A DNA stretch of 64,000 nt from Thermoproteota archaeon (GTDB taxonomy: Archaea; Thermoproteota; Methanomethylicia; Culexarchaeales; B10-G16), in NCBI GenBank assembly GCA_003649185.1, contig QMRB01000003.1, positions 1 through 64,000 on the forward strand. The letters run 5' to 3'. The translations under genes were made by a program, and so were the position numbers. The notes beneath the pieces were generated by a model. It was given only the letters and a program-made list of their open reading frames with translations, made no database searches and was not told the DNA's origin. Below are positions 15,392 to 38,825 of the stretch, piece after piece (the first letter of the stretch is position 1; the number at the start of each line of letters is the position of its first letter).

Positions 15392-15625
15392 ATGGAGATG
15401 GTAAAGGTAAAAACGCCTAGACTGAAAGTTAAAGGGAGAATTTTAAAAGAGTGGAAAGAGGGAAGAGGCTTCAGTAAAGGAGAAGTTATGGAGGCAGGGA
15501 TAAGCATCAGCGAAGCAAGAAGAATGAAGCTGAGAATAGATAAAAGAAGGAGAAGTAAACATCAAGAAAATATTGAAATATTGAAAAAGCTAGTTTCAAA
15601 TAAGTTGGAAGCCGGGGTAGCCTAG
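15392..15625 (+). CDS. rpl13e: 50S ribosomal protein L13e
   Basis: Short archaeal form (77 residues) of eukaryotic L13. Recognised by GRGFSKGEVMEAGI, ARRMKLRIDKRRRS and ENIEILKKL, which match the conserved core of L13e. ATG start eight bases after AGGAGG. The last five codons, including the TAG stop, are the first 15 bases of the tRNA-Ser(CGA) gene, so the coding region and the tRNA overlap on the same strand. L13e occurs in crenarchaeal and related genomes, which helps placement. Confidence 0.88.
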   Translation: MEMVKVKTPRLKVKGRILKEWKEGRGFSKGEVMEAGISISEARRMKLRIDKRRRSKHQENIEILKKLVSNKLEAGVA

Positions 15626-15719
15626 CGGTAAGGCGCAGGCCTCGAGATCTATGAGAGAAAGGGGCAGGAAAGCCTGTGCCCGTTTTACGGGCACGTGGGT
15701 TCAAATCCCACCCCCGGCG
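15611..15719 (+). tRNA. tRNA-Ser(CGA) with a 24-nt intron
   Basis: Class II tRNA: acceptor stem GCCGGGG/CCCCGGC, D stem GCC/GGC, anticodon stem CAGGC/GCCTG, a long variable arm (GCCCG/CGGGC) and T arm GTGGG-TTCAAAT-CCCAC. The discriminator is G and CCA is encoded (15720-15722), both fitting serine. The mature loop reads CTCGAGA with anticodon CGA. A 24-nt intron (15647-15670) sits at the canonical 37/38 position; the flanking bulge-helix-bulge is imperfect (one C-A mismatch in the central helix). Its first 15 bases are also the end of the L13e coding region. Confidence 0.95.
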
Positions 15720-34835: not shown

Positions 34836-35851
34836 ATGGGAGATGAAATGATAAAAAACACGAAAACATCCAGAGGAATTCTAATAAAGGCGGAGGAGGA
34901 AACCAATCCAAAATATGGATATATACCTAATGAGCGGCCAATAGAACTCCACATGAAAATGGGCATAATAAATTTGGATAAACCGCCAGGACCCACAAGC
35001 CACGAAGTAGTCTCATGGATTAAGAGAATACTTAAAGTGAGAAAGGCTGGACATGCCGGGACCCTAGAGCCCTGAAAGGGCGGGGAAATCCCAAAGTAAC
35101 AGGTGTACTTCCAGTCGCAATCGAAAATGCAACTAAAGCACTGAGAGCTATCACCCATTCAGACAAGGAATACATATGTGTAATGAGACTTCATAAATCC
35201 GTCGAAAGAGAAAAAATATTTAAAGTATGCAGAGAATTCGTGGGAAAAATCTATCAGAGACCTCCTTTAAAATCATCAGTTAAAAGAGTGGTAAGAATAA
35301 GAACGATCTATTACATAGATATTCTTGAAATTGAGAACAGAGATGTCTTAATGCGTGTCGGATGTCAAGCAGGCACATATATAAGAAAATTATGTCATGA
35401 TATTGGAATAATACTTGGAACCGGAGCACATATGCAGGAGCTTAGAAGAACAAGATCTGGACCGTTCAGAGAAGATGAAACATTAATCACTCTGCAGGAT
35501 CTTAGAGATGCATATGAAATATGGATTGAAGAAAAAGATGAAACTGAGCTTAGAAGAACTATTCAACCAGTGGAGAAAGCTGTGGAACATTTACCGAAGA
35601 TCATTATTAGAGACAGTGCAGTCGACGCAATATGCCATGGAGCAGACCTAGCTATACCGGGAATATTAAGATTGGAGAATGGAATAAGGAGAAGAACTTT
35701 AATTGCCATAATGACGCAGAAAGGAGAACTTGTAGCATTGGGGGAAGCTAAGATGACAAGTGAAGAAATTTTGGAGGCAGATAGAGGTATAGCTGCAAAA
35801 ACTATAAGAGTGATAATGGAGAGAGGAACTTATCCGAGAATGTGGAAATAG
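34836..35851 (+). CDS. cbf5: tRNA/rRNA pseudouridine synthase Cbf5, gene split by a 20-nt intron
   Basis: Catalytic subunit of H/ACA RNPs (also modifies tRNA U55). Exon 1 is 34836-35067 and exon 2 is 35088-35851, together 331 residues. Exon 1 reads [20 protein letters not shown] and ends GHAGTL; exon 2 resumes [16 protein letters not shown]. Unspliced, the frame hits TGA and reads Glu where the catalytic Asp should be; removal of 35068-35087 gives GTLDPKVTG with the catalytic Asp. Exon 2 includes the TruB core and the PUA domain ([20 protein letters not shown]). Last protein gene of the ribosomal cluster. Confidence 0.95.
35068..35087 (+). other. Bulge-helix-bulge intron of cbf5 (20 nt)
   Basis: The RNA around the intron folds into a perfect splicing-endonuclease substrate: outer helix GGGA (35058-35061)/TCCC (35089-35092), central 4-bp helix CCCT (35062-35065)/GGGG (35082-35085), 3-nt bulges AGA (35066-35068) and AAA (35086-35088), and an inner hairpin GCCC-TGAAA-GGGC. 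Cleavage after the second base of each bulge removes 20 nt and joins G to AT, making the Asp codon. Confidence 0.93.
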
Positions 35852-35909: not shown

Positions 35910-36004
35910 GCCGGGGTAGCCTAGCGGTAAGGCGCAGGCCTGGAGAAAAACTTGAAAGCCTGTGCCCCTTCGGGGGCTCGCGGGTTCGAATCCCGCCCCC
36001 GGCG
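35910..36004 (+). tRNA. tRNA-Ser(GGA) with an 11-nt intron
   Basis: Class II tRNA with acceptor GCCGGGG/CCCCGGC, the same D arm and anticodon stem as tRNA-Ser(CGA), a variable arm GCCCC-TTC-GGGGGC and T arm GCGGG-TTCGAAT-CCCGC. Discriminator G, CCA encoded (36005-36007). The mature loop is CTGGAGA with anticodon GGA. The 11-nt intron (35946-35956, AAAAACTTGAA) is at position 37/38; the central helix has only two Watson-Crick pairs plus wobble, so the splice structure is relaxed. Confidence 0.95.
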
Positions 36005-36007
36005 CCA

Positions 36008-37768: not shown

Positions 37769-38825
37769 ATGAATAAAGTATTGTCGGGGTCAAATTTGGA
37801 TGTAAGGGAGCTTGAAGAATTAATATTGACACCGGGAGTTTCAGGTTATGAAGAGAAGATAAGGGAGAAGATCGCTGAAAAATTGAAGGGAATATTAGAG
37901 CCGGATAAAATTTTAGTTGACAGTATAGGAAATTTGATAGTAAAAGTTGGGAGGGGGAAGAAGGAGGATAGCGTTAATAGCACATATGGATGAGCTTGGA
38001 TTAATAGTGACGAAGATCGAGAGGGATGGAAGAATAGCGTTTAGAAAGATGGGTGGAATAAACGATCAGACACTTATAGGAACCCAATGGGAGATACTTA
38101 CAGAGAAAGGTAGAGTAAACGGTGTTATCGGAATAAAACCTCCACATCTAATGCTTGGGGAACCTTCCAAAATACTGCCATGGCATCAGCTGAGAATAGA
38201 TATAGGTGTAGAAAGCAGGGAAGAAGCGGAAAAATTAGGGGTGAAAATCTTAGACCCCATAGTTTATAAGAAGACTGTGTTGAGGCTTGCCAATAATCAG
38301 ATATCGGCAAGATCACTTGACGACAGATTCGGATGCTTTGCCCTTCTGGAGACGCTTAGAAAGAGAATTGACGATTTGAAGAGAGATGATGAAAATGAAG
38401 TATACTTTATATGGTCAGTTCAGGAGGAAATAGGATTGAAGGGTGCAAGAGTTATTGCAAACACTCTTAGACCTAACATAACATTTGCCGTTGACAGTTT
38501 CCCATGCTGTTCAACTTTAACGGGAGATGTAATGGTTGGTCGGGGACCAGTAGTGAGGGCTATAGATAGAAGCTCAATATCCAGCAGGGATCTGGTGAGA
38601 TTCATCCAGAAAATATCTGAAGAGAATGAAATACCTCTTCAAATTGGAGCAACTGGAGGGGGAAATGACGGCTCAGTATGCCAAGAGAGGGGAAGCAAAT
38701 TGGCAGTAATTGGAGTTCCAATGAAATATTCACATTCACTAGTGGAGACTATAAGTTTAAACGATCTAGAGAAGCTTATAGAACTGCTCCAAAAGATTCT
38801 GGAGAGAATTCGAGAATATCCATAA
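37769..38825 (+). pseudogene. M42-family aminopeptidase interrupted by a frameshift
   Basis: The two frames 37769-37993 and 37947-38825 together encode one tetrahedral aminopeptidase. The first ends in GNLIVKVGRGKK, the second continues RIALIAHMDELGLIV. All metal and catalytic residues are kept (HMDE, SLDDRFG, VQEEIGLKG, AVDSFP, KYSHSLVE), so the protein would be functional if the frame were restored. One base too many in the G-rich run GGGAGGGGGAAG near 37950-37960 explains it: an indel, a sequencing error in a homopolymer, or less likely programmed +1 shifting. Confidence 0.85.

Follow-up and report, generated by a model that had tools for sequence, protein, structure and literature searches.

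Cbf5 is the H/ACA-guided pseudouridine synthase, and the locus described here raises the question of whether its gene is interrupted by a pre-mRNA intron and, if so, how far back such an intron can be traced. The window, i.e. the whole stretch of 64,000 nucleotides that was analysed, derives from an archaeon of the class Methanomethylicia (Thermoproteota; Methanosuratincolia in the NCBI listing), the genome of which is a fragmented assembly of 118 contigs with a completeness of 76%. Around cbf5, the gene order is secY, a gene for an EMC3-like membrane protein, cmk, rpl14e, cbf5 and a tRNA gene. The initial annotation had proposed that a bulge-helix-bulge (BHB) intron of 20 nt splits the codon for the catalytic aspartate, that its excision restores Cbf5, and that a transcript retaining it can only give a truncated product.

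The analysis bears out these proposals (Table 1). Read directly from the window, positions 35058-35092 comprise, in this order, GGGA, CCCT, AGA, GCCC, TGAAA, GGGC, GGGG, AAA and TCCC, which exactly matches the bases and BHB parts given before. The segment AGCCCTGAAAGGGCGGGGAA sits in phase 1, directly after the first letter of the codon for the catalytic Asp. Its excision brings G and AT together and results in a Cbf5 protein of 331 aa devoid of internal stops. Exon 1 matches PF08068 (E=1.2e-19), and the joined product, aligned with solved archaeal Cbf5 proteins as the initial annotation had suggested, runs across the junction without gaps (best match 3MQK, E=4.5e-130). The unspliced frame, spanning positions 34836-35075, ends after 79 aa at a TGA within the intron.

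Table 1. Features of the cbf5 locus in the window
Feature	Position	Strand	Basis or remark
cbf5 exon 1	34836..35067	+	DKCLD domain and start of TruB; ends on the G that opens the catalytic Asp codon; translation start at 34836 or 34848
BHB intron, 20 nt, phase 1	35068..35087	+	sequence read; position common to relatives
cbf5 exon 2	35088..35851	+	remaining TruB domain, TruB_C_2, PUA; stop 35849-35851; gap-free against solved Cbf5
In-frame TGA, would end translation of unspliced mRNA	35073..35075	+	ORF end
BHB outer helix, 5' strand GGGA	35058..35061	+	pairs with TCCC at 35089-35092; fold; pairing in relatives
BHB central 4-bp helix, exon strand CCCT	35062..35065	+	pairs with intron GGGG at 35082-35085; fold; Thr3/intron covariation
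5' bulge AG^A, predicted EndA cut 35067/35068	35066..35068	+	AGA in 84 of 98 introns compared
BHB inner helix GCCC/GGGC (35069-35072/35078-35081), loop TGAAA	35069..35081	+	fold; compensatory variation
3' bulge AA^A, predicted EndA cut 35087/35088	35086..35088	+	fold; intron comparison
BHB outer helix, 3' strand TCCC	35089..35092	+	third base of Asp codon and Pro codon; fold

Minimum-free-energy folding yields the BHB both for the segment itself (-16.5 kcal/mol) and for a 55-nt context (-18.4 kcal/mol). Folding energy was discarded as sole evidence, the z-score of -1.4 being not decisive. When both strands of the 64 kb were scanned for canonical BHB motifs, the cbf5 motif ranked first with nine G-C pairs, followed by a candidate with seven, and the best motif in shuffled sequences had six; the same scan yielded no convincing second BHB intron in other genes of the window. 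The motif is fully canonical, with the intron borders after the second bulge base. A fully canonical BHB is absent from 49 of the 98 introns compared, and relaxed motifs are known substrates (PMC2738675).

Moreover, the host genome encodes RtcB (E=9.7e-182) and two separate splicing endonuclease genes of the PF01974 family (on C28, 185 aa; on C4, 182 aa). Two PF01974 genes were likewise found in each of the TACK and Asgard genomes tested, except for the incomplete G008, and the euryarchaeal genomes tested mostly contain one such gene or a fused double, a methanopyral exception having two. In the proposed mechanism, bases of the Gly-Thr-Leu-Asp-Pro codons would pair with each other in the cbf5 transcript to form the outer helix, and exon bases of the same codons would in addition pair with the intron in the central helix, giving the BHB. 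The two-gene EndA, presumably an alpha2beta2 enzyme, would cleave each 3-nt bulge behind its second base (AG^A, AA^A), and the exons would be ligated by RtcB, which would restore the catalytic Asp codon from G and AT. As unspliced RNA would halt at the TGA in the intron loop, active Cbf5 would be made from spliced mRNA only. Positions 35068-35087 almost certainly constitute a genuine EndA/RtcB-spliced intron.

The kind and the place of this intron are known. All published crenarchaeal cbf5 introns (Watanabe 2002; Yoshinari 2006; Yokobori et al. 2009, PMC2738675) follow the first letter of the catalytic Asp codon and have a length of 16-44 nt, that of Acidianus being 20 nt, and cDNA from several Crenarchaeota confirms that introns are spliced out there (PMC2738675). 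The window intron resembles them in gene, codon, phase and size class, in the two-gene EndA and in the BHB cuts, predicted here, after the second bulge base. It is very probably an archaeal pre-mRNA BHB intron of the known cbf5 type, for which we infer splicing, cut sites, acting enzymes and a shared origin. The initial annotation had stressed that 20 nt is close to the minimum allowed by the motif and that the intron lies in the catalytic codon. Neither emphasis is supported, given the published lengths and position; moreover, 16 of the 100 intron loci found here are shorter, down to 13 nt. Likewise, its statement that cbf5 introns are established for Crenarchaeota is too narrow, since the present host lies outside the two crenarchaeal orders, Desulfurococcales and Sulfolobales, and Asgard archaea carry such introns too. 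A further difference is the fully canonical hBHBh motif of the window intron, most of those newly described in PMC2738675 being relaxed.

The published intron has been traced back to an ancestor shared by Desulfurococcales and Sulfolobales, and Korarchaeum, Nitrosopumilus and Thermoproteales were found to lack it (PMC2738675). In a paper from 2020, crenarchaeal cbf5 is still the one earlier mRNA example (PMC7714728). In the open-access literature we found no published report of a cbf5 intron in Methanomethylicia, Bathyarchaeota or Asgard archaea, so that the host range looks new. As for other systems, archaeal tRNA and rRNA BHB introns share the motif and presumably the enzymes, but the cbf5 intron resides in an mRNA, the reading frame of which must be restored. 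The BHB of Haloferax HVO_1309 is an mRNA substrate of EndA, as predicted here for cbf5, but lies in a 5' UTR (PMC7714728), whereas that of cbf5 is inside the coding sequence.

Taken alone, the window intron adds one more cbf5 intron; more weight falls on the survey of related genomes that had been suggested together with the alignment. Among 245 distinct loci read, 100 contain an insertion at the same site (13-67 nt, median 24; two on probably contaminant contigs). In 37 genomes with the gene, including that of the window, the reading frame encoding DKCLD spans 69-123 aa in 17 cases and more than 300 aa in 20. Families f1, f2, f3, f4, f7 and f8 of the class account for the short frames, with introns of 19-23 nt at this site; in families f5, f6 and f9 cbf5 is intronless. 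Beyond the class, introns at this site extend over much of the phylum Thermoproteota, in many other families including named Bathyarchaeota and Thermofilaceae. In total, 32 of the 40 family codes read have the intron in at least one genome and seven are mixed, figures that are no estimate of prevalence, as the reading of loci favoured short frames. The comparison is the strongest evidence against chance: the same nucleotide and the same anatomy recur in many independent assemblies. It is therefore likely that many archaeal genomes have cbf5 wrongly annotated as a pair of fragments. Three of the introns (13, 13 and 14 nt in L229 of G043, L221 of G094 and L231 of G238) fall below the published minimum of 16 nt and apparently have no inner helix.

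In 173 euryarchaeal genomes with the gene (96 Halobacteriota, 77 Methanobacteriota) there was no sign of the intron. The cbf5 frames of these controls are long in all but a handful, and the short ones read (G587, G629, G661, G700) were rejected as intron candidates, with GTLDP or GSLDP intact and uninterrupted. Introns hidden behind a missing DKCLD match were likewise discounted, as a renewed search of 23 such genomes found no TruB_C_2 in 22 of them either, indicating that these assemblies just do not contain the gene.

The exon bases around the site vary together with the intron. The third base of the Thr codon (Thr3) and its intron partner are paired in 97 of the 98 introns compared (C-G in 71, T-A in 17, A-T in nine, one mismatch), whereas shuffling gave a mean of 68 and a maximum of 79; the first base of the Leu codon and its partner form C-G in 88 and T-A in eight. 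At Gly3, G is present in 62/83 genes with intron as opposed to 24/124 without, Leu is encoded by CTA in 72/83 versus 11/124, and Gly1 pairs with Pro3 in 72/83 versus 59/124; all these counts come from related sequences and do not represent independent events. Thus, the exon wobble sites suit the BHB in genes with the intron, and in intronless genes their bases are close to random. In addition, the inner helix of seven introns of 20 nt shows compensatory changes (covariation 0.31), a value reached in none of 500 shuffles.

Asgard archaea, the closest relatives of eukaryotes, contain the same-site intron as well, here with a length of 29-41 nt. It was found in Jordarchaeia (L054, L066, L069 and others), Sigynarchaeota (L056), the LC30 type (L067, L191) and Borrarchaeum (L089, with L195 and L199), altogether in about 14 of the 141 Asgard genomes with cbf5, a count that leaves out L194 (G494 C57) and L204 (G462 C131). 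These two were rejected as likely contaminant contigs, since each genome has two DKCLD hits and the loci are placed among TACK genes in the tree. Contamination is unlikely for at least two Asgard genomes, because the intron-bearing cbf5 shares its contig with a gelsolin-domain gene (G467:C7, G436:C5), a family absent from the genome of the window and from G002.

Four closely related Asgard genomes (L202, L203, L207 and L302 in G438, G452, G430 and G457) have another cbf5 intron, found only there, of 40-42 nt at the INLD/KPPG site, i.e. between the Asp and Lys codons in phase 0. It has a relaxed BHB, both 42-nt copies, divisible by three, contain in-frame stops, and the catalytic Asp codon is uninterrupted in all four genomes. 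Furthermore, an intein-like insertion of several hundred aa, judged by eye, is present in Cbf5 of five Asgard loci (L302, L303, L304, L306, L206) and of L305 (G040, Thermoproteota f10); it follows AGTY(I/V)RKLC, ends with (V/I/S)SNC and contains LAGLIDADG-like motifs. G430 and G457 have both the intein-like insertion and the second-site intron.

As Methanomethylicia, Bathyarchaeota and several Asgard lineages all have the intron at one and the same nucleotide, it qualifies as a candidate for a much more ancient intron that was lost many times over. The window intron and the crenarchaeal one agree in position and ends. Dating by the Cbf5 tree was abandoned, as this single-gene tree is unresolved at depth and allows both vertical descent and transfer. 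On a tree of 86 rows inferred with a mixture model, the intron label changes at least 17 times. A single clade of all intron-bearing genes was rejected (AU p=2e-8), and a clade uniting TACK with the Asgard intron-bearing genes was not (p-AU 0.66, the constrained tree having the higher likelihood). Repeated loss after an early single gain is thus plausible; we regard repeated gain or transfer as less likely sources of the pattern. With somewhat less than even confidence, we propose that the intron predates the split between TACK and Asgard archaea, was retained in the active-site codon for a very long time and disappeared on many occasions, its loops being held such that retention never gives a full-length product. 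If true, the intron existed in the group of archaea that gave rise to eukaryotes.

We consider it rather unlikely that the Asgard genes acquired the intron from TACK archaea by transfer instead of descent. The joint clade just mentioned would permit such a transfer, and the small share of intron-bearing Asgard genomes points in the same direction, but the mixture-model tree places their genes outside the TACK clade (support 93, not starred) at several separate positions. Less probable still are parallel gains, in which the GGN-ACN-CTN-GAY-CCN codons would provide a ready outer helix and introns would have entered this site repeatedly and independently in TACK and Asgard archaea. The number of label changes and the rejected single clade are in line with this possibility, and the second-site intron of the four Asgard genomes illustrates that a new cbf5 intron can arise elsewhere. 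However, phase and position are identical everywhere and intron ends are similar, euryarchaea with the same codons show no sign of the intron, and a full outer helix is seldom seen in intronless genes (all four pairs in 3/145).

In each of the 18 introns whose length is a multiple of three, a stop lies in the exon 1 frame, compared with 6.3 expected from shuffled loops, though many loci were chosen for a short frame, a choice that favours in-frame stops. Among those not so chosen, eight of eight contain a stop (2.6 expected; product of probabilities 4e-5; two of the eight are closely related). For the full set of 100 introns, frame 0 contains a stop in 68, as opposed to 22 and 26 in the other frames. 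The pattern resembles the counter-selection of stop-less introns divisible by three in Paramecium and Yarrowia (PMC2911113), although those are spliceosomal and coupled to nonsense-mediated decay, whereas the cbf5 introns are archaeal and of the EndA type. Shared ancestry of the loop sequences may contribute. The pattern makes it testable that selection keeps an active-site insertion from being translated. A regulatory switch, with splicing efficiency setting the Cbf5 level, would also fit the apparently always non-productive unspliced RNA; we deem it very improbable, as presence and absence within single families speak against an essential regulatory role and loops vary widely in length and sequence.

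Finally, a sequencing or assembly artefact or a disabling insertion in a pseudogene, conceivable in view of a frameshift in the neighbouring M42 peptidase gene, which indicates that single-base errors or decay may exist in the assembly, is virtually eliminated by the 19-23 nt insertions that occupy the identical nucleotide position in G001, G002, G005 and G006 of the same order and in many other families, as well as by the Thr3/intron covariation and the fully conserved exon 2. The M42 peptidase frameshift itself (gene at 37769-38825) lies in a G/A-rich run near 37950-37990 and was rejected as an intron, as there is no spare sequence at the site; it is probably a 1-nt indel reflecting error or decay. 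Two tRNA genes of the window probably contain introns as well. The one just behind cbf5 (35910-36007) has an over-long anticodon loop of about 18 nt, received no name from ARAGORN and is probably a tRNA-Ser(GGA) with a small intron. The other, of 109 nt (15611-15719), was detected by an Rfam match and missed by ARAGORN.
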